A DNA stretch of 64,000 bases from Symbiodinium natans (Eukaryota; Sar; Dinophyceae; Suessiales; Symbiodiniaceae): assembly GCA_905221605.1 (NCBI GenBank), contig CAJNDS010000435.1, forward strand, positions 890,823 through 954,822, read 5' to 3'. The notes below the pieces were generated by a model, which was given only the letters and a program-made list of their open reading frames with translations, did not search any database and was not told the origin of the DNA. Every line of letters starts with the position of its first letter. Position 1 is the first letter of the stretch. The translations under genes were made by a program, and so were the position numbers. Below, in pieces: positions 2,741 to 44,217 of this stretch.

Positions 2741-2789
2741 ACAGCTCTTCTACTGGTTCATCGAAGCCGAATCAGGAAATCAGCCGGGA
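2741..2789 (+). CDS. S10 exon: substrate-pocket strand (LFYWFIEAES)
   Basis: First recognisable S10 exon. It follows a CAG acceptor, starts with the third base of a codon and reads QLFYWFIEAESGNQPG, the family's 'lFYWf.Es..nP' strand that precedes the oxyanion-hole loop. A GC donor follows. Because it begins in mid-codon, at least one exon must lie upstream. Confidence 0.85.
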
Positions 2790-5700
2790 GCGCCTCATCT
2801 GCCACAATGCCTACAGGGGCGTGCTTTAAAGTAGAGTCTTCCAAGGCTACCCATGAGGTTGAAGGGCTCCCCCAACATGGCCCCCAATTTGGCAACGAGT
2901 TCTCTTAAACCCTAAACCCTACCATGCCCCTAATTCACCCTGCACGCCCCATAGGCCCTAAAGTAGACCCCTAGTACATGCGAGCCCTAACCCCAACAAG
3001 TCGCCCGAAACCCCAGGACGGAACCTCAGTTGTCCGAGACGATAGAGCTTTTCCCTCCCCCTAAGCCCTGAACTTAGGGGTTAGGGCTTATAGGGTCATA
3101 GGGTTTAAAGGGTTGATAGGGTTTACAGGTTTGAAAGGGTGTAGGGTTTATTTTGGGTTTACCCGAATCCCATTGCTGTTGTTGGATGCAATGGCAACAT
3201 CAACACCTCCCAAAGCAGCAGGCCATAGTTTATCACCCCCGTGATTGCATGATATAGCCGTTTACATCCCACCCAGCTAGGCTTTGGGACCCAAGAAACC
3301 CCGAAGCTGAGGTGCTTGAACCCCAGACCCGAAAGCCCCAAGACAAAAGCCAAGAAGCGCCTGAAGCTGAGGTAGCCCCGAAACCGCAAATCCCTTAAAC
3401 CCCCAAACCCCCCAAACCCCCCAAACCGCCCAAACCCCCCAAACCCCCCAGACCCCCCAAACCCCCAAAACCCCCCAACCCCCTAAACCCTAAACTCCAA
3501 ACCCCAACTAACCCCCTGAGGTGACACCCAACCTCATCTGGATGAACGGCGGCCCCGGCGCCTCCAGCATCATGGGGCTGATGGCAGCTCGCCGGTCTCT
3601 TCAAGGAACCCAAACCCTGGAAGGTTTTGAGGGGTTTATAGGGTTTAAGGTTTTTTGGGGTTTTTAGGGTGTTTAGGCTTTATCGGGTTTTTTAGGGCTT
3701 AATTGGGTTTATAGGTTTTTTTTGGGGGTTTCGGGGGTTTTTAGGGTTTATAGGGTTTTTTAGGGCTTAATTGGGTTTATAGGTTTTTTGGGGTGGGATT
3801 TCGGGGGTTTTTAGGGTTTATAGGGTTTTTGGGGCTTAATCGGGTTTATAGGTTCTTTTGGGGGGGATTTCGGGTGTTTTTAGGGTTTATAGGGTTTTTT
3901 GGGGCTTAATCGGGGGTTATAGGTTTTTTTGGGGGGATTTCGGGGGTTTTTAGGGTTTGTAGGATTTTTAAACTTAATCAGTTTATGGGGTGTTTTTGGG
4001 GGGGATTTAGGGGGTTTACAGGGTTTAAAGGATGTGCAGGGTTGATAGGGTTTATAGGGGTTTTAGGGTTTTTTGGGTTTAGAGGGTTGAAAGGGTTTAT
4101 AGGGTTTGTAGGGTTTATAGGGTTTATAGGGTTTACAGGTTTAGGGTGGTGGGGTTCAGGGTTGTGGGCTGTGGGGCCTACGTAGCTCCCAATCAAGATC
4201 AGCCCCTAAACCCAGAAAGCTCTCAATCTCCAAACTCGCCTGTAAACCCCCAAACCCTCAACCCTAGAAATCCTAGAAACCCAATAAACCCTATAAACCC
4301 TATGAAGCCGATAAACCCGAGATCCTCTCCGTGGTTTACCGCTATCGACACCCAAAGGGCTTAGCCTTTAGGGGTCGGATCATGGGTTTGACTATTTGAG
4401 GGCTTCGGGTTTAGGATGTGCAGTTTCGGGCCCCGACCTTATAAAAAGGGTTTTATAGGGCTCGAAGTTTATGCAAGGTGCGTGGTGTTTAGGGTGTACA
4501 TCCGAAGTCGGGCTTAGTGTTTACATGAGATTCATTCGATGCTTGTTTTGGTTTTGTATTGGATTGCGCGCGGACTTGCTGCCCAATCTCAACGATTTAG
4601 ATGTAAATTTAGGTTTGCTTATCCATGGTTGGGTCGCAAAGGCTTTCAAAAACACCAAACTAGAAGAGCTGTGGGTACATGGCCACTGGGGCTTCGGGCG
4701 GCTTAGTGTTAAGGGTTGAGCGTTGCGCACTGCCGAGGTGGAAAACATCGGGCCGCTGACGTTGCAGCAAGACGGCAGCCTTGCCCCGCCAGCTGGCACT
4801 GTTTAGGGGGCTGGGGGTTTAGGGTTTAGGGTTTAGGGTTTAGGGTTTAGGGTCTAGGGTCTAGGGTTTAGGGTTTGTGTGGGGGCTCAGGGTTCGGAAG
4901 CTCCAGTGCCCGCCTATGGTTCGTTAGATCCTATATGGTCAGTTCGCTAGGTCATGGTACCCTTTTGGTGTACACCTAAATTGTAGGAGCCACCTTAGAA
5001 TAGTAACCCCAAAATGGGTACTAAATTAGAGGAGTCACCATATGGCCTGTGAAGGAAATATAGGGCCATTTTGGAAAGAGGTATTTTTGAAGATCAACTA
5101 CGAGGAGCTGTCCCCCACCCCAAACCCTGGACAGCCCAGAACCCGACATCCTAAGCCCTAGACCGTCCTCCACCTGCCTTTGCCCTAGGGTTTGGGGGTT
5201 TAGGCTTGAGGCTTTAGGCGCTGGGGTTTACACGTAGGTTGGTGCTTCGTTTTGGGTTGAGAGTTCTGAGTGGCACCGCACCCTATACCTACTGGGGTCT
5301 AAGCAGAGTGCTTGGGATTTCATCGGATGTAGCACTTCAACCCTGCACCGGAAAACTCTGACCCCAAGCCACAGTCAGGCATGTGGCCTATAGAGCAGCA
5401 AACAATTGTTAACTAAGGCAAGATCCTTTCAGTCATGTTGCCATCCTGTTTTCCCTAGTCTAATGCTAAACTCCTGTGAGGTTCAGGGCTTTGGCTCAGA
5501 ATGACTTAAGCGCAAAGATTCAGAAATCTGGCACCCAAACCCCCTAACTCCGAATACATCAATGCTTATACATGCCGTCGACTTGCCGAAGCTGATTTCG
5601 CAAACTCAGCAAAGTCCAGCTCATTCGACTTATGGGTTTGGGGTTTAGGGTATAGGATCCAACTTCTGGGCGCATTTTGGATCCTGAACCCTAATCTTCA

Positions 5701-8700
5701 ACCCCCAAAGGGCCCGATTCTTGAGATCCATTCCCATGTCCTTCTCGAGTTGCCGAGAGCCCTGGCGTACCCTGGGGTTCACAGTTTACGGTTTTACGCT
5801 TTAGGGTGTAGGGTACTGCGGTTTAGCTTTTAGACGTTCGCGGTTTGAGGTTCATTTAGGGTGTGATACATCCCTAAGCCGCAGCTCCAGTCAAATCTGT
5901 GTGTGGCGTGCCAGGAACCCACACGCCTGGAGCGGGAAGAACAACGCAGCTTGGCTTTGACCTACTGGTCCTTAGGTAGGGAATGACTGTTTAGGGGTTC
6001 AGGGTTTTAGCGTCTTAGGATTCAGGGGTTGTGAATTCCCCTCGTGCCGTTTGTTTTGAATGAGCCCCTCATCCCCCCCCCCCTCCCCTCCAAACAAGAT
6101 ATAGATGCCTTCTTGTGAGAAAGTCTCCTGCTGCCGATGTCCCCGCAACAACTTGATCCTGATGCAGAACCATTGATTAAGAGGCATATTGGACTCTTTG
6201 GATCTATGATGAGTTCTAAGATGCGATCCTTTAGCAGCGTCCCGAATTGCTGCCTGTTGTGCGGCTCAGAAGCAATTCACCCCTTCCTGGGCCACCACAG
6301 ATTGGTTCGAACAGCAAGTGCTGCTTGAGGGCCATCTCGTTGGAATTCAGGTCTGGGTGTTCATGAAAAGTATGGGCCCTGTTTCGGTCTCTGTTCTGGT
6401 ACGTCTGTTGCTTGTAGTATGTGTGTACACTTAACATAGAGTGATATACAAAAGTAGAAGCATTGCAGCGTTGCTTACGTGTCTTTGCCTGTCAATCATT
6501 CCGGGCACAAGAATGAGTCCATACTTCGAGCAAGGCAGTAGCCTAATTGAATAGGATGGGCATTGTGGGCTGGTTTAGATGATAGCTATATACAGGGGTT
6601 AGAAGGGGATGAGATTGACAACTACTTAAAGGAATGCTAAGGTCACAACCCTAAACTACCCTCATTTCCCACAGGCCCCATGGCCAAGCACTGCACTCCC
6701 TTAGGTCCAGCCTACTCCAGAACACTCCACGCTACGTAGTTCCTAACGTTTCGGCCGTGCCATCGCTAAGCATTGGGTCGAAGCCAGTACTGCCTATAAT
6801 ATAATTAATACCCTAAAACCCCACCCCCTGCCCAAATTCTAAACGATTTGGGGGGCTAAATCCTAAAGAATAGGGTTTAGCGAATAGGGTTTAGCGCCTA
6901 AATCCTAAAGAATAGGGTTTTGGAATAGGATTTAGGGCCTAAATCCTAAAGAATAGGGTTTAGGAATAGGGTTTAGGGCCTAAATCCTAAAGAATAGGGT
7001 TTAGGAATAGGGTTTAGGGCCTAAATCCTAAAGAATAGGGTTTAGTAATAGGGTTTAGGGCCTAAATCATAAAGAATAGGGTTTAGCGAATAGGGTTTAG
7101 GGCCGAAATCCTAAAGAATAGGGTTTAGGAATAGGGTTTAGGGCCTAAATCCTAAACGAATAGGGTTTAGAGCCAAAAATCTTGAAAATGAGGGGGTCAT
7201 TTCTGCCATATGAATTCTATTTAAAATCAATTGGGAATCGGCCACTTTTTCCCGAATCCTGGGGTACCCCCCACGGAGGCCTAAATCCTATTTGCTAAAT
7301 CCTATTCCCGGACACGCTAAATCCTAAACGAATAGGATTTAAGGCCTAAATCCTAAAGAATAGGGTTTAACGAGGCTTACTGCAGATTTGGGTTCGGTGT
7401 TGGGAGGACTTGGGTGGTTTCTGGGTTGGGTATTTGGTAGGGCTTGCATTGAGGGCGCACATGTTCACTTCGGACAGGTGCTCATCATCGACAATCCTGT
7501 GGGTTCCGGCTTCAGTTGCTTGGCACAGGGTATGGGACAGAGGGGATCTCAACAGTCGGAAAATGTGAGTTGCAGTTCAGGGTCTACATGGACCCTTGCT
7601 TTGATTGCAGTTCCGCTCTTTGGAGGGTACCTAGGTTTCTGGTTACATCAACCGTGTAATAAGAAGATCGGCAAATCGAACAAAACCTAAGGGTTAAGGG
7701 TTTAGGGTTGTGGCCGCTTGGTGCACATGGCCACCCTGAGTCCTCTGACGACCGAGCTTCCGACACCCCAAACCCTGAAATCCAAAGACAAGAAGCTTCA
7801 CCCCTCAGGCTTAGGCGAGCCCATTCCCAACATCGAGACATGATCAACTATAGGTACTTCGGCCCCTGGAAAGTGTTGTTTTCCACTTGAGGGGACCAAA
7901 TTTAGAAACGTATTGCAGAGAGTGTTTCATGGCCAACCTAGTCAAGATTCAGGTCGACCCATGGGTTAGACCCTGGGAATGATACTACGTAGTTTTCTTT
8001 GGCATTGGATGTGGAGAGGCTGAGGGGCTGAAGGGTGTGCTAGGCCCAGAGCCCTAAAAACCCCCAACAGCAGAAACTCAAAGCCTGCAACCCTAAACCC
8101 CAGACCCCAAATCCTAAACCCCATAAAAATCCCTCAACCCTGAACCCTAAACCCTAAACCCCATAAACCCTAAATCCTAAACCCCAAACCCCATAAACCC
8201 TCAACCCTGAACCCTCAATCCGAGCCCTGCGTCTCACCTGCGTCTGTCACGCAAGGCTTCACAGGCAAAGAGCCAAAGCCCCAGCTGCCTCGGTAAGGGT
8301 TTAGGGTTTAGGGTTTGGGGCTTGGGGCTTAGGGTTCAGGATTTGTAGCCTTAGGGTGTGGGAGGGAAGGCAGACAGCGCCCTGAACCCTCAGCCCTGTC
8401 AACCTTAGCACACACCTAAACCCTAAACCCTAACCCTAAACCCTAAATCCTGGACCGGTTTGGCATAACCTGTCGGCGGGTCGATGTGGCGTAGCGCCCC
8501 AAGCCCTAAACTAGGACCCAGATAGGCCCTTCTCCTTTGTTGGGGGGGGGTGGGGGGTTAGGTTCCTTAGAATTGAAACCAAAAGGGCACCTTTTTTTTG
8601 CTTGGTGACTCTTGGGCCTAGTGAATCCGCTTACCTTATGCCCTGAACCCGTAAACTACCCAAACCCCTGAGCAACGGCTCCCCCAAAAGCTTCAAGCTT

Positions 8701-11700
8701 GGCAGGACCTACGGTCGGGATATGGCAATGATCAGTCTGAAGTCATATATATATATATATGTATATCATGTATATCATGTCGTGTCTGATCTTACCTTAT
8801 TATCGCATATTAATAGTTTCGGACATAAGTTGCAGTATAGGTAGAGAATCTAGCAAATAAGATAGAATATGGTGCGGGGTACGTAGCCAACCTTCAACTT
8901 TAACTGTCTCCGGGTCCTAACCAACCTTGAGCGAAGTGTTAGAGCCCTGAAACCGCCGAAGGCGAACCTATTCCCCCCTCGAAAGCTGAGCCCCTATGTC
9001 GACCCGCAGCTTGACACCCTGAGCATCCCCACAGCCTTACCCGATTTTTTCCGGTGCTTCTAAGAGGTCTTAACCCCCTAAACCCTAAACCCTCAGCCCT
9101 AAACCCTAAACCCTAAACCCTAAACCCTAAACCCTCAAGATGGCGCCTGACTCCCACTGAGCTGCCTGAGGAGCTACGTCACTTCGGAGGAGGAGATGCG
9201 CAAGGACTTCTACACGGCCCTGAAGCACCCAATCCGGACTATTCCGAACAACGGCTCTGGTTCAGGGTTTGTGGTATAGGGTTTAGGGTTTAGGGTTTAG
9301 GGTTTAGGGTTTAGGGAGTTTGGTGAGTCAGTTTGAGTTTGCCCTAAACCCAAACACCCCGTGGGCTTTGGGGCCGTGGGAGATGCTGGCTCAGGGCGCC
9401 GGCCTCCCTCAAGCAAAGCAATCCCTTGGCCTTTCCCACCCTGAAACCCTAGATCGTGACACTCACAACCGACACTCAACCCCTAAACCCTAAACCCTAA
9501 ACCCTAAACCCTAAACCCTAAACCCTAAACCCTAAACCCTAAACCCTAAACCCTAAACCAGATAGAATCCATGCTTAGGGTTGCCTGAGAGACCTTCCCC
9601 ATGCAGTAGACCACTGCGGGGTTTTCGGCGGCGCACGCAAGCCTCAAGATGTCCATGATTGTAGGGCCGCTTGTGCTCTAAAGAGGACACTACTTGACTT
9701 GGAGTCCTGGTGAGCAAAACCCTAAACCATAAACCCTAAAGCCCTAAGCCCCAAACCCTAACCCTAAACCCTAAACCCTAAACCCTAAACCCTAAACCCT
9801 AAGCCCTAAACCCTAAACCCTAAACCCTAAACCCCAAGTCTCCGAGTCGGTACTCGAAGCATTTGTCCTCTACTGCAGGCGAGTTCTCCGAATTCTGAGT
9901 CTGCTTTGGGGCTCAGGGGTTGTGTGTAGGGTGCAGGGTTCAGGTTTATGGTTTAGAGTTTACTGTAGGGTTTAGGGTCTAGGCTTGACTGATAATAGTT
10001 GCCCAAGAAGGAGCCCTAATTTAGATCCCGTCAGAGAGCCTAGTTCAGCAAGGTACATCCTCACCCAGCATCCGGAGTACGCAAGGACTTCTCACAGCCA
10101 AGTGCATGCGCTTCTTTAAGCTAGCGCCCCCCCCCCCCCCATAACCATAAAAGGTTTTTGGCATTCTTTTCTGGATCTTGTTCGGTGTTGTGGGTCTATG
10201 GGGGAGTTGGGGGGGTTAATAACGGTCCTGCCGATCTCAACCCTGAACCCAAACCCGGAAGCCCAGAACCTCAAGTACGTTGTGCAAGAAGCAAAACGCT
10301 GTAGGTACCAGTGTTCTGGGCATGGTCGCTGGCTTCAACCCAAGCGTTTATCCGTGACGAAATGCGCGTTTCCAAAACGCAGACACGCACGTTTTCAAGG
10401 ACAGCAGGTTCATGAATAGACACACAGGACGAACTGGAGCCTACCTACGTCTGAGGCTTTGCAGGAACCAGACAATGATGTTTTTGGGGCTCAGGAAGTA
10501 GACATCCCGACTAACTCTACGACTACCAACTCCCAACCAAACCCCAAACCCCGTCCCCACCCCCTAAACCCTACCTCCTCGAAAGGAACCCCTTGTGGGT
10601 CACTGGCGAGAGTTATGGCGGCAAGCGGCTGGGCCAGATTTGAGGGCCCGTGTGTTGTTAAGATCCGAAATACCCACGAACTCAGGGCTAAATGTTCATA
10701 GGGTTTAGGGTTAAGTAGAGGGTTTAGGGTTCGGTTGGCGTTTAGTGTTTGAGGTTGAGGGTTTTGGGTTTGGGCTTCGTCTAGGGTTGAGCGTTTTGAG
10801 TTGGGGGTTGGGGGGGTCGAGGGGTCCCAAGCCCTACTCCAGGTATGTTCCCAACGTCGCCTACGAAATCCACCTCCGAGCGGAGCTCCCGCTGAAGGGC
10901 ATCATCATAGGCTGGCCGCCTTAAACCCACACTCCAAACGCGGGTGCAAAACCCAAACCCCAAATCCTAAACCCCAAACCCTAAACCCTGAACCCTAAAC
11001 ACCGGACCCTAAACACCGGAACAACAACCCTTAATCCAAAACCCAAGAGCCTACTTCAGGGGATGACCCAAAATCTCTGTCATCCTTCTGTCTGCGTGGC
11101 TCCAGCCAAGCACGAAAACACCACACAGGATTTGGGGTAGTTTAGGGTTCAGGTTTCAGGGCTTCGGGCAACTTCGAGAATTTCAAAGCCCAGTTTCCCT
11201 TACAGGGTTTGGAGTTTAGGGTTTTTGCCTAGGGTTTAGGGTCTATGACTTAATGTGGAAAGCCCTCTTTCCCAAAACAATGCTGGGCATGCCGGAGGGG
11301 CTTAGACTGTAGCATCTATTTCGTTTGGGGGCCAGGAGGGGCTTAATGCCTAAAAGTCCCATTGTGGGAACGCCCAAGAAGGGTAAACCCCATTTTCAGA
11401 ATCCCCCCCCCCCCCCCCCCCCACGTCAGGCAATGGCGTCTACAGCGGCCTGATCCAGAACCCGACGGCGCCTGGGTGGAGGAATCGTCGCATCCTCCAT
11501 CTGCCATACTTGGGGGTTAAGGGTTTCAAGTTTACGTTCATTGGTACTTGCAAGTGGGGTTAAACGTACACCGAACTAAGGCGATATACCTTTGAGAGCT
11601 ATAGCTACGCCGCTTATAACTCACTAAAGAGTACTCATGGTTCACCTACAAACCCTATAAACCACATAAACCCTACAAACCCTATAAACCCTAAGCTCTA

Positions 11701-20700: not shown

Positions 20701-23700
20701 ATGTCTTGTGTTCTAGTTACGATTTGACTTGTAAATTAATTGCTACCTCTTTGTTTAGGAACTGTCGAAAAGTCAAGGTACCTGAGGAACAGCCCCAGCG
20801 CCCCCCAGTCTTTCGGGACATCTGCTGCTTCCTTCCCATGGGAAGCATCTATCACTACGTTCAGCGGAACATGCTTCCTTCCACTCCCGGCTACGCGTGG
20901 AGCGTCCTCAGCCGTCGCTGGGTTCGTGCTCTGACGACGTTGGCAGTGTTCATTGCTGCCCTCCTGGCGGAGGGTATGGAGTCCGGATTCAATTATTGGC
21001 TGGTACTGAACAACCTGATATTTGGATTCCTCCTACTGTTTGCTGGCTTTGTACCGGCCTTTAGGGACCCAGCACCATCGCGTCCCGACATCTTTCTCGG
21101 CTTGGCAGCGGCCGTGCACACTTGGCGAGCCGCTTGGCACGTAGTCGGCACGGATGATGAGGGTTCTCCAGCCTGGGAGCGCCGAAATGGCCTGTGCTCC
21201 GAGCACCTGGCGATGTTTTGGATCATCGTCCTTGTGACCATGTGCCTATATCCCCCTTGGGAAGGTTTTGTTTATATAAAACCCAAGAGGATATTAAAAT
21301 TACTAGTTTTTTAAGGTTCTAAGGGGAGTATAGGTGCGGCACCGAAACCCTTGCTGTGGGTACCTATGGCGCCGCTTTGATCGTCCTGCAACAGACGACC
21401 GGCGTGCCAGGTGTGCCATGCTTCTTGGCGGCCTTCTGCATGCTGGTTCCTGCGTACCTAGCCGAGCGTATTTGGTGCTCAGCGTGCGCTGAGCTTCATC
21501 GATGCCGACTGGCAATCAACAAGTTGCTGAAAAGAGGTGGAGGTGCATGGCTCAGCATCAGCATAGAATCCGGCCATGTAGTTGAATCGTCGCCAGGGTT
21601 GGAGGCATACATGGGACCCATGAGGGAAAACACGCACCTCACAGAGCTAGTACGTTTGCCCAAAGACCGGCAGATTTTGGACCAGCTCATTACTGGATGT
21701 TCCCTTGCAGCTGCTGGCGCAGCAGCAGCAACTTTCAACTACAGAGGCCTCCGATGCCATGAGTACGCCACCCTTGTGGAGGAGACCATTGAGACAGCAT
21801 TGGCCCCGCGTGACGTCAGCTCCCTCCGTTGCCTCAGCTGTCCCAAGGGTGTCCAAGCCAAAATAGTGCCTTACAAGCTCTCTTTGGACGACAAACGCCT
21901 CTCCATTTGGGTAGGAGTCGACACTCATGCCATTCAGCACACAGATCCACGATTGGAGCTTGCCACAAGAGAGAAAGTTGTGGCAGTTCGCGAGCACGAC
22001 AGCCGTTTGAAGCAAACCTCGCTGGAGATGCGTGAGAGGGGCGTCGAGGAGCTCGAGCAGGCTTTGTCAGAGATGCACCAGCGCTACTTAGAGGCTCTGG
22101 CAGAGAAGCAGCAGGTGGTACAGCATGGCAAGCACCAGGAAGACTCAGAGGATGAGAAGAAGGCTTAGAGGGATGCAGGTTAGTGCAACCGAGCCGTTGC
22201 CCTCAAATGTGAAGCTCAGGGACTCAGGGGTTCCGTTGAACCTAGGGCGAACAGCCCTCAAAGACGAAGTGCCGCCTTCACCTTGGTTAGCCCTTGGGTG
22301 CTGTTCTATATTCGTTATTGCTTTCTTCAACGTTAACGGGGCCTGTCTACGACTGTTTTTGGGAGGTCTTCCAAGGGCCAACTGAGCAAAGGGGAGAAGC
22401 CGAAATCACTGGAAAGCCTACTTCTTCGTAAGTAGCCTAAGAATCCTAAACGGCTTTAAAGCAGGAATCTACATAGGAGTTTATGGGCTCTTAAGGTAGG
22501 GTTGGGCATTGCCGTTGCAAGCCCAACTGACATCCAGATCTTCGGCAAGCCCCTGACAAAAGCCTGAAGCCATGGTGCCGTGACGCATGAAAAAATAGGG
22601 TTTTAGGGTTTAGGGTTCCCAGGTCGTGAAGGGAGGGACCTACGAAGCCTAAACTGTTCGTGCTTCGGAGTTGAACTAGGGATTAGGTTTTTAGCGTTTC
22701 ATTTGACAAGCCCTCACCCCGAAAGGTGGAGAACAAATTGAGCTCCGCAAATCATCCGTGACTGGCACCCCACAGTCTGAGTCTGGAACCCGAAGATAGT
22801 TGAGCATGTCTGATCTGCCAAACTCCCCCTAAACCCTAAAACTTTCCAGCAGCGATCCGACAGCGTATATTCTAGAGACGGTGCAGGAGGAACATTCTTG
22901 CAACTAGGGCTCTCTTAGAGGCGGGTGTATGGTCTTTGGATGTCTTTGGCCACAGCCCCACGTCCACTTGTTTGAGACATCTGTCTCCCCCAAGCTGCTG
23001 TGGAAGAACCCTTCTGGCCCTCTCAAAGCCAAAGCTACGGGACATGTTCCATGTGCCCTCCGCGCCCCTTGAACCCTGAACCCCTACATGAGCCCACAAA
23101 AACACCCTCCAAGCCTTAGAAGTGGGAACTAAAGCCGCGAGAGTCATGTCAATCCCGAGTGACGGCAGAATGTTGGGCTTGGGGTTTCGGGGAGGGCGGA
23201 GAGCGGGAGGGGGGAGGGGAGAATTGATGGGTTCAGGATGTAGGGCTTATATCCCTTTACAGTCTAACAGGTCAATTAAACAGTTTGTCACTCGCGTGGC
23301 TCTCTAAATAAGAGTCTGGGCCTTCTCAGGACCTGGCGCCAGTCGGATGAGGCCTGCCTCTTCCTCTAGTTCGGGGGTTGGGGCTTTAGGGACTAGGGTT
23401 GTAGAGTTGTAGGGTTTTTGGGTTTAGGGTGTTTGGGTTTTAGGGTTCAGGGGTTTTGGGTTTAAATTGGAGTTTGGGTTTTTTCGGGTTTTAGGGTTTA
23501 GAAGGTTTCAGGTTTTAGGGTGTAGACGGTTGCTTGGGGTTTGATGTTCATTTAGAGCTCATGGTGGGTGGGCAAGCAATGCATAGGCTTGAAGCACGCT
23601 CCAAGACCACAAAAATTCAAGAGCCTGGATGGGATTGCAAGTTTATTGTCGAAGTGATTTGGAGAGGCGTGCTTAGGGCCTAGGAACGCTGGTGGTCTGG

Positions 23701-26700
23701 GTACCCACCAGGTGTACGTTCTCGGACATGCGCTTAGTGTGGAGCTCATCTTCACAAGCTGCACCTGGTGCGCCAGTGATGCCTCCACCTATGGCATTGT
23801 CGCATCGCGCTAGGTCCAAGACCCAAGATATGACGGGCGCCGCTCGAGAGAGATCAAGGTCTAAGCAGCGAGTGGCTGGGATAACTGAGCGGGTACCACA
23901 CCCCTCTACACCAAGACCATTAAGCTCTTACCCCCCCCCCCCCCCCCAAACCCGGAGCCTTCAAAATGCGGTTAGGGTTGAGTTTAATTTGGGTTTAGGG
24001 TTTAGGATGGTTAGGGGTTCTGGACACACCCGAAGCCGAAAGCCTTCCAACCCTCTGAGCACCTCTGAGCCCTTCGACAGGTTGGCCCCGTGGCCGAAGG
24101 CCTTGTCAACGACTTCGAGACTGAGCAAGGCCCTTTGCCCAACAAAGTGTTGTGGGCTTCGGGCTTAAGGGCTTGGAAGTCGGGGTTTCTGGGATCTTGC
24201 AAGGATACCAGCATGCTTCGTTGACTTGGTGGTTTCGGTCCTGGAGTTCTGCATCCCTGGGCGTGTATCCACGACGGCCTTTATCCGCTTCTATCCATGG
24301 CGCTCCACCTACTTTACATCCGGAGACGGGCTTTATGAGTTGGGGTTTCAGGGATAGAGGGTTTTATAGGAGCTTGAAGCTTATTTCAGGAATTTTGGGT
24401 CGGAGTTGAAACAAGCTGAAAAAGCAGAAGGAAGCATGAACGCAAACTCCAAACCCTGAAATGTGAACACCCTAAGCCCTAAACCCTAATTGTAGCTGAC
24501 GTTTTCTTCATGCGTTTGCGGTTCAGGGTGTTGGCGAGACTGGCAAGTTTATGGGTTAGCGATTGGGCTTGAGGGCTTTGTGGCAGGCGGAACCCCATAC
24601 ACTCAACCCTAGTAGGGGTGTTACTGCCTGAATGAACCCCGAAGCCTAAACCCTAAACCCCAAACCCCCAACTCTGAAACCCAAGCCTTAGAGGCCTCAA
24701 GCTCTTAGAACCTCCCACGCCGTACAGGCATGAGAGTGATCGAGGCGCTGTTGGATGCTGGGAAAGGCCGGGTCTCACAGTTTGGGGCTTAGGGGTGCGG
24801 AGGTTGTAAAGGCTGTTCCAGGGGCCAGGGCAAACCCTCAACTTAAGGTATCGTTCTGAGAAAACTTTTGTGGACAGTGCGAAGCTCTCATGTACCTTTC
24901 ATGGTCTAGGGATATTGCGCGTGAAGGAGCCCCTCAGAAAGCGCCCATGACTTTGAAACAGCCTTGAGCTAAACCCTAAGCCCAGAGCCCTTTATCCTCT
25001 GAACTGTAATTATCAGCTTTAGCAGCAGAAACCCTGGGCAAGACATACCAGAGTAGAAGCCCCCCCAAAAAACAATCCAGAATTCAAAATGAAGAAACCC
25101 TAAAAGTGTGGCACGAACCCTAAAATCACGAAACCCGAAGGGTTTAGGAATCAGGGCTCAGGGTTTAGGGTTTGGGGAAGGGCAGGCCCTAAACCCTAAA
25201 CCGTAACCATACAGCCCTAAACCCTGAACCATACAGTCCTGAAGTTTGTAGGGCCTGAGCTGCGATCTGTCGGAGGCTACCGTGTGGTGACCTACAATGG
25301 CGTTCGCGATGGGTCCGTGGCGGAGCTGTCTTCAGTGGAGTTTGCAGATTAGGGTTTCGTGTTTAGGGCTTAGGGTTTAGGGATGAGGTCTTCTGGTTTG
25401 GGGGTGTTGTCTAATTCAGTGCCAGTGTCCCTATACCCGAAATCCGAAACCCTAAGCCGCGTTTCGGCTAATGGTTTTTCTGGCCTGGGGGTTTTTGGTC
25501 TTTTGCAAGGGTTGAGGGGTTCACTCATCCGGAAGGTTTGTGGGGCGCGTGCCACCCGAACCCACGAAACCGTGAAGAATGAATAGGCAACGAACTACCT
25601 CACCCCAAAACCATACATAGACCGTCTTGTGTAAATGTCGCTGTTTCGGGTTAGTTAGCCCGGAACCTTACAGTCCTTTGGGAGCTTCCCTCAACCGGAT
25701 CAACCGTTTCTCACATCTTGGCATTCCCAAGCACGGTTGCCAATGCTTAAGGTTGATTGGGTCTCCCGTGTTGTTTTCTTGAATAGGGTTTAGGGCTTCT
25801 CTAAGGGTTTAAGGATTTTGTGCTTCCAAACTCTGACTACCTAGAGGAGGGCGTAGGGCTCAGGTCGATCACGGAGGGCCCACTAGTAGCACTACTAGGC
25901 AAAGAGGTTCTTCCGCAAAACCATTGTAAATCGGGCTTGGTCACCTAGTTCAGAACCCTCCCTGGTTCTCCAATGGAGACCCACAGACTCTTCTCTGTCG
26001 AAGGGTTTGGCCTGGGGTTTGGGGTTGTAATTTGTAATGTGCTGCCAAAGACCCTTATAAGCTGGAGAAGTAAGGTGTGGGTGTTTAAATGTGCTAGTTG
26101 TTCAAAAGACCTGTTCCCCAAAACGACCACGAGGTAGTTGTCCTTGTGAGTAAGGATGATTCTTATTCCATGGCCCATCCCTGACCATTCGAACAACCAA
26201 CCCCCCACCTCCCCCCATGTGTTAAGTCTAAGCCCGAGGTGTGCAACCACCTGGGTAACCTCATGTCCATGAAGGAGTGGGAGGGGATGGCTTGGCTCAA
26301 AAAAGCTGAACAAACAGGGGGGGTTATGGGTTCCGGGTTTTTTTTAAAGGGTTGTAGGGGTGTTAGGGGGTTTCGGCGTTTAGGTTTACGGTTTAGGGTT
26401 TGGAGGAAGGAGTTTGCTCTATAAGACTCCAGTGTGGTCCAACTTTTGGAGCCGGAGAAGGTGCTGAAAGGAGCTTAGGGGCCTCGGAGACCCTAAACCC
26501 TAAACCCTAAACCCTAAACCCTAAACCCTAAACCCTACTTGTGCAAGGATTCTGCACTGAATCCTCAGCCGTTGAAGCAAGGGTTTAAGGGCAAGGGGGG
26601 TTCGAGTTTGGTCTGGTTTTGAAGGCAAACGGCCCCAAAAAGGGAACCTAAACCCCCAACCTCATACCCTAGCCCTAAACCCTGAATCCACAAACACCCC

Positions 26701-29277
26701 CAAACCCTAAACCCTAAACCCTAAACCCTAAACCCTAAACCCTAAACCCTAAACCCTAAACCCTAAACCCTAAACCCTAAACCCTAAACCCTAAACCCTA
26801 AACCCTAACCTTAAACCCTAAACCCTAAACCCTAAACCCTAAACCCTAAACCCTAAACCCTAAACCCTAAACCCTAAACCCTAAACCCTAAACCCTAAAC
26901 CCTAAACCCTAAACCCTAACCCGCCCAACCCCCCCAACGCTAAACCCCAAACAGGCCTTGAAGTGGAATGGCACCCTGGCCTTCAACGCTGCGGCAACCA
27001 CCCCTTGGCGACCCCTCGGGTCTTTGGCAGGCCCTCTGGCGGCTTTCGTTGAAAGGTTTGAGGTTCGTAAGGTTTTTAGCGCTTCGGGGTTTATGAGGTT
27101 GTGGTGATTGTGGAATTTTAGTTGATGGTCAGAGGTTCTGTTGAAATTTTGAGGCATTTTCAGGTTGAGGGAGAGTGCTGCGACCGCATGCTAACTAGTA
27201 GTCGGGTAGTCTTTCCTGGACATCATTCTAGTAGACTCCCCAAATGGTAGCCTTGAAATCGGAAGCTGGACAACCTAACTCAGTCAACCTGCACCCTGAA
27301 CTCTAAATCATGGGGGTTCGGGGTGACAGCGGTCGAAATCCTAAACTCTCAACAGCCCGAAACGTCGGGCCAGGCTACCAGAGATCATCTGGTGCCCTGT
27401 CCTACTACACGATCCTCTACACCGGACTCATGGCCAGAAGTGAATATCTGGTCTCATGTTTGTTTCGGTTTGCTGAGCTCTCTTGTCGGGGGGTTGGGGG
27501 CTGCAAGGAGGTGTCCACAATCCGTGGTTAAGGGAATTTCACCTCGGTGAGAATTAGAAGCCAAGTAGAATTTGGCTTGACTTCATTAGGTTTTGGGGTT
27601 CGGCGGTCGGGGGTTTCGGGGGGGGGGGGGGGGGGGGGGGGGGGGGCGTACCCTACAAACCCTAAGCCCTTAGCCCCTAACCCTAAACCCTAATCCCTCC
27701 CGCTCACGCTCTTGTTCTTGCTGCACCTTGGAATCCTTTGCCAGTTTAAGTTCAAAGGGCTGCCTGCGAAGGCCCCTAAGCACCCTAAAGAAGCCCTGAC
27801 GGTTGAATCCTTAGCCAGGGTTTGGGCTCAAAAAAAACTGGCAAAAGGAAAAAGAGAGGGACCTCGCCTGAAAAAGCTTCTCTGCAATGGAAGTCTTAAG
27901 CAATATGCAATAAAAAGGAAAGTAGACTGCTGGCCAGCCGATGTTTCTAATTGTCACCCCATTTTTATTTTCACCATACCCCGTTGTATATATCAGTTTA
28001 GCCATATGAGCCCAGAACCTTCTCCGAATGGAAGGTCGTCTTGGACCGGGATCCCCGGGGCCTGCCGAATCGTAGAATTCCCGCCCCGTTGATAAATGTC
28101 AGGTTAACATTAGGGTTTAGGGTTTAGGGTTTAGGGTTTAGGGTTTAGGGTTTAGGGTTTAGGGTTTAGGGTTTAGGGTTTCAGGCCGTAAGGTTGTAAT
28201 TCAAAGCTGCCGGGAAACCTTTGGCTTCCTGTATGTATACTTTTTCCGGGGTGAGGGGCGAGGAAGCTGGGCACGTCGGCTTGTAGGTGTAGGTTTCAGG
28301 GTTTAGGTGGCTTCGAAGCCCCTAGACCCTTATGCCGAATACCCAAGCCTAATACCTCTTATAACTACTAACCCCAAACCCCAAACCCTAAACCCTCAAC
28401 ACCCTAACACCCTCAACCGCCCTAAACCCTAGGCGCCCTAAACCAGGACACCTGGTGCCCATGATCGTCCCAGACACCGCCAGGGCGATGATTGCCACTT
28501 GCCAAGTTCGGCTCAGGATTTTGGGGTTTTGGGGTTTTGGGGTTTAGGGTTGAGGGCTTAGGGTTTAGGGTTTAGGGTGAAGCCCTAAACCCTACGCCCT
28601 AAACCGAATAGACCCGAAGCCTTAAACCCAGAAAACCAGATCGGGTGAAGGGTTGGGCTTGGGTTTTTTGGTGGGCATCCTGTGGTTATTACAATGCTGC
28701 TATCATAGACAAAGAGCCAGGGGGGGTGTAAGTGTAAGGGCGGGGAGTGCAAGGGAAAGTATTCCACAAAAAAGGTTCCAAATAGCCCAAATAAGCCCTT
28801 AATCAGCCTTAATTTTTGCAGGGATCACCTGCAAAGAAGAGTTGCCGGGCTCTTGGGGATCCGCCCACTGTCCCTGGGGTCCCCCCTTACAGTTTAGTTT
28901 TTTTCGGGCCGAGATCGTTTGTCAGTTTTTTTGCAATGCAAACTTTAAACCAAAACCCCTCACAAGCTTTCAGAAGCCGGCTTGGGCTTTTGAAGCGAAG
29001 GTTTATGGCCTCCCTGCTTGCCTCGCCTCTCTCTTTTTCCAGGTTTCATCACCGTTCTGGCTCTGAAAGTGATCACGACCCCAAGTTCAACCTAATCTCA
29101 TTGGAACCGAAAAGCTACCCAAAAAATGTTTAGGGCTTGCGTTTGGGCGTATTTCAATGAAATTTGAGCTTTATTTGAGCAAATCCTAATAAGCCTTGAC
29201 CCCCAAACCCCAAACCCCAAATAGCCAAGGAGGAGATCGTGAACACTGCATCCGCGCAGGGTGCCATCGTGGTCTGA
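2741..29277 (+). CDS. Serine carboxypeptidase, peptidase family S10 (27 micro-exons; 5' end missing)
   Basis: S10 enzymes remove C-terminal residues in acidic vacuole/lysosome compartments or outside the cell. Exons rebuilt from motifs and phase: 2741-2789, 3521-3586, 4738-4787, 5915-5948, 7478-7529, 8265-8292, 9171-9224, 10053-10085, 10586-10624, 10843-10910, 11430-11467, 15693-15743, 16057-16104, 16420-16470, 17183-17254, 17878-17920, 18878-18940, 19708-19763, 23120-23158, 24081-24129, 24728-24766, 25276-25319, 26239-26304, 26955-27009, 27356-27424, 28447-28500, 29225-29277. They join without frame break into about 453 residues. In order: LFYWFIEAES; NLIWMNGGPGASS; NPHAWSG; IIDNPVGSGFS; SYVTSEEEMRKDFY; GESYGGKYVPN (Ser); IIIGNGVYSGLIQNP; FAYNMGLIDD; YLNSAATRAALHVGN; TYNGVRDGSV (Asp); CNHLGNL; LKWNG; TGHLVPM (His). 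S10 proteins usually have 420-480 residues plus a signal peptide, so only the N-terminus is lacking. Introns hold telomere-type repeats. Less certain exons: 8265, 16057, 17183, 23120 and the last one. Confidence 0.92.
3521..3586 (+). CDS. S10 exon: oxyanion-hole loop (WMNGGPGASS)
   Basis: Reads VTPNLIWMNGGPGASSIM, matching the S10 signature (L/I)W(L/M)NGGPG(C/A)SS almost residue for residue. It starts in phase 0 after a TGAG acceptor and ends in phase 0 before a GC donor. C-rich telomere-type heptamers lie on its left and degenerate T/G-rich ones on its right. Confidence 0.93.
3600..4140 (+). repeat. Degenerate T/G-rich telomere-like field with a 68-70 bp tandem unit
   Basis: Within an S10 intron. 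About four copies of a 68-70 bp unit begin at 3695, 3763, 3832 and 3902; each contains GGGCTTAAT, GGGTTTATAGG, a T-run and GGGTTTTTAGGG. The flanks are looser mixtures of TTTAGGG, TTTATAGGG and TTTTGGGG, so the unit looks like a satellite grown out of mutated telomere-type repeats. Confidence 0.75.
6857..7180 (+). repeat. 41-bp satellite of opposed telomere-like half-sites
   Basis: About seven copies of a 41-bp unit (for example starting 6979 and 7020). Each holds CCTAAATCCTA followed by TAGGGTTTAGG and a second GGGTTTAGGG, that is, C-rich and G-rich telomere-like sense within one unit, so each copy can fold into a short hairpin. Degenerate copies reappear at 7318-7372, up to about 105 bases before the DNPVGSGFS exon. 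Confidence 0.85.
8740..8780. repeat. AT-dinucleotide microsatellite
   Basis: A short (AT)n run followed by two TATATCATGT units, inside an S10 intron. Similar AT runs occur at 15391-15432, 40381-40410, 40440-40460, 44395-44412 and 46195-46217, all within introns of the micro-exon genes. Confidence 0.8.
10586..10624 (+). CDS. S10 exon: catalytic serine (GESYGG)
   Basis: A 39-nt exon reading NPLWVTGESYGGK, the nucleophile-elbow signature of S10 peptidases; Ser in GESYGG is the nucleophile. The previous exon ends HPEYAR at a GA donor, and the next begins YVPN after a GC donor. Joined across both introns, the product is the contiguous family motif 'PEY..NP.w.tGESYgGkYVP'. This is the most strongly constrained splice set in the gene. 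Confidence 0.95.
11404..11422. repeat. C-homopolymer abutting an S10 acceptor
   Basis: An uninterrupted run of about 19 C ends six bases before the CAG acceptor of the GNGVYSGL exon (starts 11430), where it serves as an extreme polypyrimidine tract. Other long G/C runs: 10129-10140, 23933-23947, 27619-27646, 31227-31241, 36791-36814, 42077-42093. Confidence 0.75.
12221..12370 (+). repeat. 54-bp duplication plus long G-run
   Basis: A unit containing CCCTTAAACCC, CCCCGGCTGGGGG and GGATCCAAGGGAGG is repeated at 12221 and 12275. It is followed by a G homopolymer of about 26 bases (12341-12367). It is intronic to the S10 gene. Confidence 0.8.
12400..15690. other. Repeat-poor 3.3-kb island inside the largest S10 intron
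   Basis: Between S10 exons ending at 11467 and starting at 15693. AT-rich sequence (12.4-12.9 kb) is followed by a tandem duplication with a WW-like reading frame (13.28-13.95 kb), then by 14.1-15.3 kb with several competing open frames on both strands (for example minus 14378-14869, plus 14945-15319), none recognisable. Telomere-type heptamers are almost absent. It may be an inserted gene fragment or mobile segment. Confidence 0.45.
13277..13950 (+). repeat. About 340-bp tandem duplication carrying a WW-domain-like exon
   Basis: Two copies (about 13277-13612 and 13612-13950; matching blocks are 335-351 bp apart). Copy 1 reads PRWKRVDSRTMNEFYYHN then IQTGDR in frame from 13280, resembling the WW domain 'W......g..YY.N..T....W' without a visible second Trp; copy 2 has EFYDHNVQTGE. 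Each copy has a consensus donor (GTAAGT at 13313 and near 13648) and a C-run. Fragments of a WW-domain gene are a reasonable guess; no complete gene is visible. Confidence 0.5.
19172..19295 (+). repeat. 61-bp direct duplication
   Basis: Two near-identical copies starting at 19174 and 19235, containing CCCTAGGGCCGGGGAGG, GAGATCTGGGATTTAGGG and TCTGGGATTAAGGG. It lies in the S10 intron preceding the YLNSAATRAALHVGN exon. Confidence 0.85.
20473..22168 (+). CDS. Nested three-exon membrane protein with a PAS-like segment and coiled-coil tail
   Basis: Exons 20473-20558 (ATG; MASAEPLLEAPDLETGLASQ), 20759-21241 and 21334-22168 (stop TAG) join in frame to 467 residues. Intron 1 (200 bp) is GC-AG and intron 2 (92 bp) is GT-AG. 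The N-terminus is acidic and has no signal peptide. Exons 2-3 encode about five hydrophobic helices, for example ALTTLAVFIAALLAEG, LIFGFLLLFAGFVPAF, FWIIVLVTM and FLAAFCMLVPAYLA. A soluble part follows: WLSISIESGHVVESSPGLEA resembles the start of a PAS fold, and IVPYKLSLDDKRLSIWVGVD a later PAS strand. The tail is a Glu/Gln-rich coiled coil ending EDSEDEKKA. Function is unknown; a membrane-anchored sensor is possible. It sits on the same strand inside the S10 intron 19764-23119, has no telomere-type repeats, and its exons are 5-10 times longer than its host's. Confidence 0.72.
25276..25319 (+). CDS. S10 exon: catalytic aspartate (YNGVRDGSV)
   Basis: Reads YRVVTYNGVRDGSV, the S10 'V.(V/I)Y.G..D' strand whose Asp is the second triad residue. 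The exon at 26239 continues with VCNHLGNLMSMKEW, the conserved 'CN..GN' segment. Both junctions keep frame (phase 1 in, phase 0 out) with a GC donor. Confidence 0.92.
26701..26920 (-). repeat. Longest near-perfect CCCTAAA array
   Basis: About 30 head-to-tail heptamers with one imperfect unit near 26808. It lies in the S10 intron between the CNHLGN exon (ends 26304) and the LKWNG exon (starts 26955), only about 35 bases before the latter. On the coding strand it is the C-rich sense. Confidence 0.95.
27619..27646 (+). repeat. G-homopolymer of about 28 bases
   Basis: An uninterrupted G run in the S10 intron just before the His exon, directly followed by CCCTAAA-type sequence. It is a candidate for G-quadruplex formation and a likely place for sequencing or assembly length error. 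Confidence 0.9.
27880..28090 (+). repeat. Dispersed repeat, copy A (paired with 31940-32130)
   Basis: Shares blocks in the same order with 31940-32130: CTGCAATGGA, GCCAGCCGA, a TTGTCACCCC-TTTATT block, ATCAGCCC/ATGAGCCC, GATGGAAAG/GAATGGAAGG, and TCTTGGGCCGGG/TCTTGGACCGGG. The two copies have diverged and lie in different genes' non-coding sequence. A partial third trace (ATTGCCACCCCTTTATTATT) is at 31427. No terminal repeats or coding capacity were seen. Confidence 0.6.
28447..28500 (+). CDS. S10 exon: catalytic histidine (GHLVPM)
   Basis: After splicing to the exon ending at 27424 (…YYTILYTG, GA donor), it reads GHLVPMIVPDTARAMIAT, the family's 'aGH.VP.d.P..a..mi' C-terminal motif with the triad His. 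If the preceding exon is read through its donor the residue after TG is Leu, so the unusual GA donor is needed to restore the catalytic His. Confidence 0.92.
29225..29277 (+). CDS. Probable terminal S10 exon
   Basis: Starts after a TAG acceptor, reads KEEIVNTASAQGAIVV and ends at TGA 29275-29277. Its phase matches the His exon (phase 1) if that exon uses the GC donor at 28501. It has no family signature, so it is assigned by phase, position and coding look only. No polyadenylation signal could be identified. Confidence 0.5.
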
Positions 29278-30163
29278 GGGATTTTTCATCTCTCGTCATG
29301 GAGCACATAACACGGTTCTGAGGGTTTGGGGTTTAGGGCTTTCAGTTTACAGGGTCCACTCCTTTCAGTGTTTTGTGTGTGTTGGAGCCCAACTACGCAG
29401 CATCGATTTCAAACACAGCCAACCGTGGCGCTTCCGGTGCTCGCGAGCAATGCATCTGCACCGCTTGAGGGGGTGCCCTTTCCTCGAAGGAATCCCTCAC
29501 ATGAAGCCCTAAAGACCCTATGCCCTCAACTGCAGAGCCCTACGGTGCCCTACGGACCCACAACCCTAAAGCCTAAGCCCTAAGCCCGTGACCGCCGAAC
29601 TATTGAAAATGGAGCGATTTAGTCACTTTTGGCATTTCAGGTTGGGGGTTGAGGGCTCTTAGCTTTGGGTTTAGGATTCAGGGTTTAGGGCTTAGGGTCA
29701 TGTAGACTTCCTGAAGCTTCACACCCGTCGTTTGCGTCGGGCCCCTGTAGCAGCTTGTTGAGACCCACAGCTTTGTCCTTGCGAGACTGTCACTTGGGCG
29801 GCCCGCTACGGGATGCGACAAGAAAAGTGCTCAGTCGTGTTCAGGAAGCTTTAGTCACTTCGGGGTTGTTTCGAGTATGTAAACCTCCGCTCGTGGCTCC
29901 TTTTGCGGGTACAAATACAAATTGGTACCACCCGTCGCTAAAAAAGGCACCATACACCTCCTCGATCCTCAGCGCTTAGCTGTTTTTGGTGTGGTTTCGG
30001 CAAGTTTTCACGGCCACGCCCCCGACCTTCGGCCGGCGTTAGGGCCTGTAAGGTATCGGGCTTAGGGTTTAGGGTTTAGGGTTTAGGGTTTAGGGTTTAG
30101 GGTTTAGGGTTTAGGGTTAAGGGTTAGTGTACCAAAGGGTTTGACGGGTTGAGCTCCCAGGTT
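29278..30163. other. Spacer between the S10 gene and the next micro-exon gene
   Basis: About 0.9 kb between the S10 stop and the next ATG. It holds unique sequence at 29.70-30.00 kb without heptamers and a TTTAGGG run at 30060-30115 directly upstream of the next start. Any promoter or trans-splice acceptor should be here, but dinoflagellates lack a standard TATA box and I can mark no element. Confidence 0.4.
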
Positions 30164-40378: not shown

Positions 40379-40414
<36 letters not shown>

Positions 40415-43400: not shown

Positions 43401-44121
43401 TTTAGGGTTTAGGGTTTAGGGTTAGGGTTTAGGGCCAAGGTACCAGGGAAATCCTGATGGTCAGAAGTGGATGCTGACGAAGTACATGGGGGAGGACGCA
43501 GAAGGAGCCCCTCCAATCTTTAAGTGCAGGTCGGGCTGTTCGAGTTTGGGGGGTTGGGGTTCTAGGGTTTTGGGGGTTTAGTTTCTAGGGGCTTAGGGTT
43601 TAGGATTTTGATTCTTGGGGTTTCGGGTTTAGAGGGCACGCAGTGAAACGTCTACATGCGCTTCCAGGCTTCTTCAGGTTTGATTTTCAGTATGGTTTAT
43701 AGGGTTTGGGGTTTAGGGTTTGGGGTTTAGGGTTGGGGTTTAGGGTTTAGCGTTTCGTCTGCAAAGCTCAGATTCAGATGGCCACCGCGGCTACACTGAA
43801 TGTTTTTGTTGCCTCTGGTTTTCAGTGTTAGGGTCTAGGGCGGAACAAAATTTCTTTCACGACATCGCGCAGAGCATTTCCCTTGTTCTAAGAACTAGTT
43901 TCGCACGTTCGGTTCTGTGACACTGTGGAACCCTCAAGCAGCTAGACGATTCCTATGTCATCCTTAGGCTGCTTGGGAACCGGATAGCGGTAGCTTTGTG
44001 AGATTTGGGTCTCTCGTTTTATCTTCGTGGTTTGACTCGCCAGAGCTGACAGTATGCCGTGGGTAGTACCAAAGAAACATCCTGACGCAGACCAGCCTGC
44101 AAGCCACAATCGATATCCGAT

Positions 44122-44217
<96 letters not shown>

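Follow-up and report, generated by a model that had tools for sequence, protein, structure and literature searches.

The S10 gene

The window, by which we mean the whole stretch of 64,000 nucleotides analysed (C435:890823-954822, + strand, the contig ending with the window at 954,822), comes from Symbiodinium natans, described as a free-living dinoflagellate (PMC8045281), and holds a serine carboxypeptidase gene of the S10 family (gene 1) and two neighbouring genes (genes 2 and 3). Spliced alignment gave an S10 gene of 29 exons with 1320 nt of coding sequence, which runs from ATG to TGA with chaining phases and encodes 439 aa. Twenty-six of the exons lie inside the window at 2741-29277 and three further upstream:

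L027 7360-7419, 7686-7717 and 8641-8688, exons 1-3, in the 10 kb upstream of the window
2741-2789, +, exon 4 (QLFYWFIEAESGNQPG), start at 2739 with the profile of 25 relatives
3521-3583, +, exon 5 (WMNGGPGASS)
4738-4787, +, exon 6
5915-5945, +, exon 7
7478-7514, +, exon 8 (IIDNPVGSGFS)
8256-8271, +, exon 9, 16 nt
9171-9224, +, exon 10
10053-10085, +, exon 11
10586-10624, +, exon 12, nucleophile serine motif GESYGG, also from the 7kdv alignment
10843-10910, +, exon 13 (YVPNVAYEIHLRAELPLKGII)
11430-11467, +, exon 14 (GNGVYSGLIQNP)
15693-15743, +, exon 15 (VPEFAYNMGLIDDHQL)
16420-16464, +, exon 16, acceptor AG|A
17195-17251, +, exon 17
17878-17920, +, exon 18
18884-18931, +, exon 19
19708-19756, +, exon 20
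23330-23351, +, exon 21, absent from the public model P0095
24081-24129, +, exon 22, shared with P0095
24728-24766, +, exon 23, shared with P0095
25276-25316, +, exon 24, catalytic Asp region YNGVRD (also 7kdv alignment), shared with P0095
26239-26274, +, exon 25 (CNHLGN), shared with P0095
26955-27030, +, exon 26, shared with P0095
27374-27424, +, exon 27, shared with P0095
28447-28493, +, exon 28, catalytic His motif GHLVP (also 7kdv alignment), shared with P0095
29230-29277, +, exon 29, stop TGA, coding part to 29271 shared with P0095

The exons measure 16-76 nt (median 48 nt), the introns 218-4225 nt (median 738.5 nt), and 1180 of the 26,537 nt in 2741-29277 are coding (4.4%). The original prediction had described about 27 exons of 28-72 nt, about 5% of the region coding, with the S10 motifs in order on the + strand and phases chaining to a stop. 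Motif order, strand, approximate positions, phases and coding share were all recovered. So was the division into very many exons, the count being 26 in the window and 29 in total with a start outside it; the proposed size range was too narrow at both ends.

The splice-aware aligner was blind to repeats, ranked donors GT > GC > GA and favoured AG|G acceptors. It returned the same 26 exons with P0001 alone as guide or with a profile of 25 relatives, the two differing only in where the first exon begins, by 2 nt. Alignment pieces in 1-2740 of the window (four with P0001, one with the profile) were dropped and replaced by the three upstream exons. P0001 is the top relative (69% identity to a query of 215 joined residues, among the best 120 of 207 relatives). 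A guide for human cathepsin A over-fitted the DNA into a chain of 51 exon pieces, and relatives from the database were used instead.

A first crude join of 201 residues matched PF00450 (E 2.5e-32) and solved S10 enzymes. The full joined protein aligned over positions 6-419 of the 420 in the profile as one continuous Peptidase_S10 domain, as had been expected of the joined exons, with E 5.7e-80 and 270.2 bits against a curated cut-off of 21.9. The Ser, Asp and His motifs (GESYGG, YNGVRD..CN and GHLVP) align to those of human protective protein 7kdv, and we take the catalytic residues of the family to be the nucleophile Ser in GESYGG, the Asp in the YNGVRD region and the His in GHLVP. The predicted 439-aa frame is complete, with neither the broken frame nor the absent exons of a pseudogene. 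The locus is thus read, on its sequence, as an ordinary, intact, intron-rich nuclear serine carboxypeptidase gene with predicted activity, the enzyme probably being secreted or lysosomal. We presume it to be CPVL-like, a label borne by one source name, P0014.

When the assembly (759,417,921 bases in 2543 contigs) was searched with P0001, seven matches were obtained among the best-scoring candidates. Three, at 72-81% identity, are the S10 locus itself, and the remaining four, at 32-47%, are paralogues, i.e. other S10 genes. Since the top three are one locus and the rest reach 32-47% only, a closer S10 copy was not found among the best-scoring candidates, and the intact S10 gene elsewhere that had been named as the case against the original prediction has so far not appeared among them. 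Other S10 matches, on contigs C1535 and C180 (L001 and L002), have long unbroken frames of 324 and 409 aa, unlike the 29-exon gene.

Further features were noted within and around the gene. The S10 intron 19757-23329 contains two long open frames of 202 and 270 aa at 20706-22168 (+), possibly a nested or retroposed gene, for which Pfam gave nothing at E 0.001. Non-coding poly-C/poly-G runs of 20-29 bases occur at 11403-11422, 12344-12367, 27618-27646 and 36792-36814, the first of which stops 7 nt short of an S10 acceptor. Rfam gave no match at gathering scores.

Neighbouring genes and splice sites

The public record P0095, a 340-aa 'KEX1 [Symbiodinium natans]', contains the eight 3' S10 exons and then runs into gene 2; on this reading it would be a partial S10 gene mis-joined to its neighbour. 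It had been foreseen that a gene finder without transcripts would take the locus for repetitive DNA. That holds for a PF00450 family search of the assembly, which failed to pick up the S10 locus, and does not hold for P0095 with its eight exons. The neighbours are:

30161-36776, +, gene 2, membrane-protein-like, 10 exons used, from the mapping of P0095; ends beyond these exons are possible
30161-30225, 30445-30481, 30683-30718, 32576-32599 and 33204-33257, +, gene 2, exons 1-5 of those used
34447-34499, 35224-35265, 35756-35807, 36072-36139 and 36734-36776, +, gene 2, exons 6-10 of those used
38096-48227, +, gene 3, thioredoxin-like, 17 exons, 293 aa, ATG to stop, from spliced alignment with relatives

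The last two mapped rows of gene 2 (39865 and 41516) were dropped. The Pfam match of gene 3 is weak (E 0.00097, under the curated cut-off), and its relatives include P0121 at 61% identity. The acceptor before 44234 in gene 3 is TG instead of AG and lies behind a long (TG)n run, which makes this exon boundary uncertain; a missing mini-exon or an assembly problem is possible there.

In the 53 introns of genes 1-3 the donors were GC in 40, GA in eight and GT in five, and the acceptor was AG in 52, with G as the next base in 49, the aligner having favoured such sites. The introns therefore read as dinoflagellate spliceosomal introns (GT, GC or GA donor, AG acceptor, usually AG|G). An AG|G acceptor is the rule in dinoflagellates. 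GC and GA donors are described as usual in the group (PMC11453091), and a mean of 14 introns per gene is given for the Symbiodinium group (PMC11114475). The original prediction had suggested an undescribed class of genes, a suggestion that these two sources speak against. Since dinoflagellate genes ordinarily have short exons and GC/GA-AG introns, and the two neighbour genes are alike, sharing both exon build and tract polarity (see below) with the S10 gene, we see no new gene class here.

P0008/P0130 and P0031/P0164, relatives of gene 1 and gene 3, bear the neighbouring numbers g16437 and g16436 in one data set, and relatives of the two genes also sit on Effrenium contigs that are both 152,377 long; the pair may be syntenic in Symbiodiniaceae. 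Towards the end of the window, the long frames at 59836-61995 and 62459-63769 (-) resemble pieces of a Ty1/copia-type polyprotein, and three overlapping frames at 54862-55799 (-) with near-identical repeated protein text suggest tandem repeats with a unit of a few hundred bases.

Telomere-type repeats in the introns and in the assembly

Tracts of TTTAGGG are here called G-type and tracts of CCCTAAA C-type, and CG or GC gives the left-to-right order of two tracts. The introns of the S10 gene had been described as filled with telomere repeats. Rich they are, while 'filled' overstates it: strict telomere-type hexamers cover 14.9% of S10 intron sequence, and heptamers with at most one mismatch 30.7%. 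For all 53 introns the coverage is 16.0% strictly and 32.1% with one mismatch, compared with 8.5% after shuffling, and a single intron of the 53 wholly lacks the repeat. The introns are thus rich in telomere-type repeats yet not made of them. Exon bases of the three genes have a hexamer coverage of 0.0% on the TTTAGGG strand and 0.2% on the CCCTAAA strand (S10 exons 0%), and the whole window 7.5% and 6.5%, respectively. Internal arrays reaching 38.7 copies in 1-30000 of the window qualify as interstitial telomeric sequences. Examples are:

4815-4876, G-type (TTTAGGG) array, beginning 28 nt past the last base of exon 4738-4787
9481-9559, perfect CCCTAAA array of 11.3 copies in an S10 intron, a C-type example
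26647-26919, long C-type array of 38.7 copies with 89% matches, stopping 35 nt before exon 26955-27030

A higher-order telomere-like array is found at 6852-7170, where a 41-bp tandem repeat (7.7 copies) has CCTAAATCC and TAGGGTTTAGG in each unit.

Such repeats are not peculiar to this locus. Eighteen stretches of 10 kb were chosen by hand, and hence not at random, from elsewhere in the assembly; after removal of two with long N runs, array coverage in the remaining 16 was on average 14.4% (SE 3.0, range 0.6-38.8%), and in shuffles of five of the sampled stretches 1.3%. Apart from N, the commonest 7-mers in the sampled stretches are the 14 rotations of the heptamer, seven per strand. The original prediction missed both this spread through the genome and the way the repeats are oriented with respect to exons.

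Orientation of the repeats around exons

In the three genes, C-type tracts lie 25-100 nt upstream of exons and G-type tracts 25-100 nt downstream. At 25-100 nt after donors, G-type sequence makes up 22-28% of the bases and C-type 5-9%; at the same distance before acceptors C-type makes up 22-27% and G-type 5-14%; farther than 100 nt from splice sites all four tract classes amount to 3-14%. Each intron was given a polarity score, the excess of G-type over C-type after the donor plus that of C-type over G-type before the acceptor, with p values from random flips of introns. At 50 nt, 40 of the 53 introns were positive, eight negative and five zero (p=5e-6), and at 100 nt 41 were positive, 10 negative and two zero (p=1.5e-5). 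For genes 1, 2 and 3 the numbers (positive/negative/zero) are 20/5/3, 7/0/2 and 13/3/0 at 50 nt, and 22/5/1, 7/1/1 and 12/4/0 at 100 nt.

A fourth gene on C1535 (L025), with 13 exons and 12 introns and P0191 as relative (E 3.4e-125; alignment pieces before 417 and after 4865 excluded), agrees weakly: at 100 nt six introns were positive, three negative and three zero, which is not significant (p=0.15), and at 50 nt the numbers are 5 vs 3 (p=0.12). The 65 introns of genes 1-4 together give 45/11/9 at 50 nt and 47/13/5 at 100 nt, i.e. the opposite polarity in 13 of 65 at the latter distance.

Strand composition bias of the genes together with chance might be thought to produce the polarity, and the sequence near splice sites is indeed skewed also when the tracts are masked (G/C skew of -0.24 at 6-25 nt before acceptors and +0.16 at 25-50 nt after donors). 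Such a neutral origin is hard to credit, since the polarity in the three genes reaches no farther than about 100 nt from the exon in either direction and flips sign across it, and repeat-blind predictions reproduce it on other contigs (see below). With tracts included, AGG occurs at 6.9 per kb over the final 25 nt of introns vs 23-28 beyond 50 nt, and CTAA at 23-24 per kb at 25-100 nt upstream vs 8-12 elsewhere, the latter figures largely restating the tracts.

The polarity is tied to exons. Centred on exons, the score averaged 23.8 over the 32 internal exons of genes 1 and 2 (21 positive, nine negative, two zero); centred on random points in the interior of their introns, it averaged -4.0 +/- 5.7. 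Among tract pairs 60-150 nt apart in the 34 introns of this set, those spanning an exon were CG in 14 cases, GC in one, CC in one and GG in two (17, 6, 4 and 7 at any distance), and those free of exons were CG in 12, GC in 15, CC in nine and GG in eight. The C-left/G-right pair thus belongs to exons and not to introns.

These numbers bear on an origin at the DNA level, in which telomere repeats were added to both ends of a broken intron before these were rejoined as TTTAGGG...CCCTAAA, so that the surviving unique pieces would read CCCTAAA-piece-TTTAGGG, like a tiny chromosome. Near-touching opposite tracts (each at least 14 nt, gap at most 30, in the window and L009-L027) do show the polarity of telomere fusion, with 18 G then C and six C then G (six of the 24 coming from L023), and in primates and rodents the repair of breaks is known to give rise to interstitial telomeric repeats (PMC7215372). 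We nevertheless consider this origin unlikely, as the exon-free segments are unpolarised (CG 12 vs GC 15), random interior points fall far below the 32 exons in score, G- and C-type tracts show no association inside single introns (phi -0.16), and capping does not predict the 25-100 nt range of the three genes.

Co-occurrence across exons and within introns

The two tracts tend to flank the same exon. Of 50 internal exons, 22 had both the C-type tract on the left and the G-type tract on the right, four the former only, 10 the latter only and 14 neither (phi 0.45, Fisher p 0.003, within-gene permutation p 0.003), this being the strongest of seven settings of window and threshold, which together span phi 0.28-0.45 and p 0.003-0.07. 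Nearness alone explains part of this, as pseudo-exons placed inside introns gave phi 0.18 +/- 0.15, and 3.9% of draws attained 0.447. A comparison of opposite ends of one intron gives a different picture: both tracts were present in 16 of the 53, the G-type only in 17, the C-type only in 13 and neither in seven (phi -0.16, p 0.27; -0.13 to -0.24 over the seven settings). Tract amounts behave likewise, correlating across exons (rho 0.38, p 0.007) and not within introns (rho -0.05). That the tracts associate across exons and not within introns argues against pairing of intron ends and for an action on each exon.

Pairing of a G-type tract at the 5' end of the intron with a C-type tract at its 3' end, which would bring the splice sites together as proposed for Amoebophrya, was rejected on the missing co-occurrence within introns. 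The polarity does yield complementary ends on average, and introns with inverted repeats are described in Amoebophrya (PMC7789003), but with no association of the two ends in phi or rho we hold this reading to be very improbable.

An active exon-marking code, in which the upstream C-type and the downstream G-type tract jointly define very short exons, possibly by RNA pairing across the exon or through a pair of RNA-binding proteins, would account for the joint presence of both flanks on one exon and for their correlated amounts, and in humans pairs of intronic motifs within 100 nt promote exon inclusion (PMC2945786). It is set back by the share of the co-occurrence that closeness explains, by the 14 of 50 exons with neither tract, and by exon length, on which the flanking tracts had no effect (46 nt with both vs 47 nt with none, p 0.51); moreover, the human pairs are described as having no excess complementarity (PMC2945786). 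We regard the code as doubtful, if worth keeping in mind. The energy of the RNA duplex was slightly more favourable across the same exon (-61.9) than across shuffled exons (-55.4 +/- 2.7) or within introns (-57.9), a difference given little weight because tract content alone could yield it.

As an observation apart, the pair was present at none of the eight exons with GA donors and at 22 of the 42 with GC or GT donors (50 internal exons, genes 1-3).

Work on dinoflagellate introners has reportedly been done by Roy et al. 2023. Introners are described in Symbiodinium and other dinoflagellates (PMC9860276, PMC11453091), and the introns could in principle be copies of a transposable element with telomere-like ends. 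When the 53 introns were compared all against all by blastn with the heptamers masked, only one of the hits (180 bp, 69%) joined two introns, and the other six fell inside one and the same intron. No shared repeat family was thus found; introner copies were rejected for genes 1-3, and such an origin is extremely improbable.

Polarity elsewhere in the genome

In the 18 stretches, tract-bounded segments of 60-170 nt (those with N excluded) had a higher coding score when the order was C-type then G-type than in other orders (65 vs 98 segments, Mann-Whitney p 4e-5). For 10 hand-picked repeat-rich stretches from eight contigs, exons were called by a repeat-blind predictor whose training set consisted of the window genes plus some long frames; two of the stretches lie on the contig of the window at a distance of more than 180 kb. 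On the window itself, 29 of the predictor's 45 calls with a score of at least 20 overlap a known exon. In the 10 stretches, 92 predictions reached this score, with flanks CG in 23, GC in two, CC in five and GG in eight, and 54 were one-sided or bare. The excess fades with the score, the counts (CG, GC, CC, GG) being 14, 9, 9 and 7 at 16-20 and 32, 36, 25 and 18 at 10-16. The observed difference of 21 between CG and GC compares with 1.7 +/- 4.0 after shifting, with a maximum of at most 14 over 1000 draws. Without the two-sided condition, the 16 stretches gave 38 positive, 42 negative and 64 zero (mean +11.8) at scores of at least 22, and 27, 16 and 21, respectively, at 20-22.

In the whole assembly, the CG order with a gap of 70-100 nt (CCCTAAACCCTAAA-(70-100)-TTTAGGGTTTAGGG) has 46,443 matches vs 26,016 for GC, overlapping starts being included, so that these are matches and not loci. 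At 300-330 nt the CG order, the one order counted at that distance, has 143,516, above the 70-100 figure; the genome-wide CG excess is stated for gaps of 70-100 nt and may extend beyond exon-sized gaps. In the 19 stretches L009-L027, CG vs GC is 25/7 at 70-100, 104/31 at 160-190, 83/32 at 200-230 and 39/34 at 300-330 nt, and in the window alone 1/0, 16/14, 6/10 and 3/8 at the same distances.

That the telomeric heptamer of Symbiodinium natans doubles as a genome-wide exon-marking code read by the spliceosome, with the tract pair at 25-100 nt, is a tentative proposal, and one we would not expect to hold.

Splicing as the proposed sorting force

We favour the reading that splicing has sorted the orientation of abundant interstitial telomere repeats near exons, to which we give a probability of about one half. 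Telomere-type repeats, abundant throughout the genome, would accumulate in introns, and the pre-mRNA, judging from the alignment, would use AG|G acceptors together with donors that are mostly GC. TTTAGGG holds TTTAG|GG, which may mimic a dinoflagellate acceptor and so be disfavoured just upstream of true acceptors. CCCTAAA, being C-rich and without AG, would be tolerated there or even be useful, as it carries CTAAA, which resembles a branch point; its repeats contain neither AG nor GT, GC or GA. The G-runs of TTTAGGG would in turn be favoured 25-100 nt downstream of donors. It is because TTTAG|GG imitates a 3' splice site and CCCTAAA does not that we infer splicing to be the sorter. Avoidance of decoy acceptors alone accounts for the scarcity of TTTAGGG before acceptors, but leaves unexplained its enrichment and the scarcity of CCCTAAA after donors, as well as the presence of both flanks around one exon.

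The tendency of the repeats to lie on a set side of each exon, which recurs elsewhere in the genome, hints that they are involved in RNA splicing or moulded by it. If the polarity applies genome-wide, telomere-type repeats, often deemed traces of repair, would be read by or filtered through splicing, and such repeats may exceed a tenth of the genome sequence, going by the 14.4% in 16 hand-picked stretches. A genome-wide polarity would help to account for the recognition of exons of 16-76 nt between introns of some 740 nt, and would allow a direct test of whether a simple repeat can act as a cis splicing element. Dinoflagellate gene prediction would likewise gain a signal; the public S10 model is partial and fused, and in the annotation of S. 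natans, repeat masking is described as having preceded gene prediction (PMC8045281). Were the exon-marking code true, the spread of telomere repeats would be coupled to gene expression.

Comparison with known systems

What is new here is the polarity of telomere-type repeats relative to exons; the gene itself is ordinary and the intron biology of a known sort. No description of exon-oriented telomere repeats was found in the open-licence literature of PubMed Central, the range covered by the search. Compared with the S10 family (cathepsin A), the protein has the complete domain with aligned Ser, Asp and His and shows nothing unusual. Like the intron-rich genes of Symbiodiniaceae, the gene has many short exons, AG|G acceptors and GC/GA donors; where it differs is in its 29 exons of median 48 nt and in introns rich in polarised telomere-type repeats.

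Introns that carry repeats are known from this group in the form of introners and of the inverted-repeat introns of Amoebophrya (PMC9860276, PMC7789003). Unlike these, the present introns share no family and their ends are unassociated, both tracts being present in 16 of 53 introns with phi -0.16, which is not the Amoebophrya type of inverted repeat. In plants, telo boxes are also TTTAGGG-type motifs away from chromosome ends, and the Arabidopsis motif is described as commoner in the first two introns (PMC3022908). The same source has telo boxes enriched in 5' UTRs with introns slightly depleted, whereas the repeats described here are oriented by exons. The human motif pairs of Ke and Chasin 2010 (PMC2945786) resemble the present case in being paired in the flanking introns, mostly within 100 nt, and not at pseudo-exons. 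They are described as many short motifs, while in Symbiodinium natans one telomeric heptamer and its complement take the two sides.
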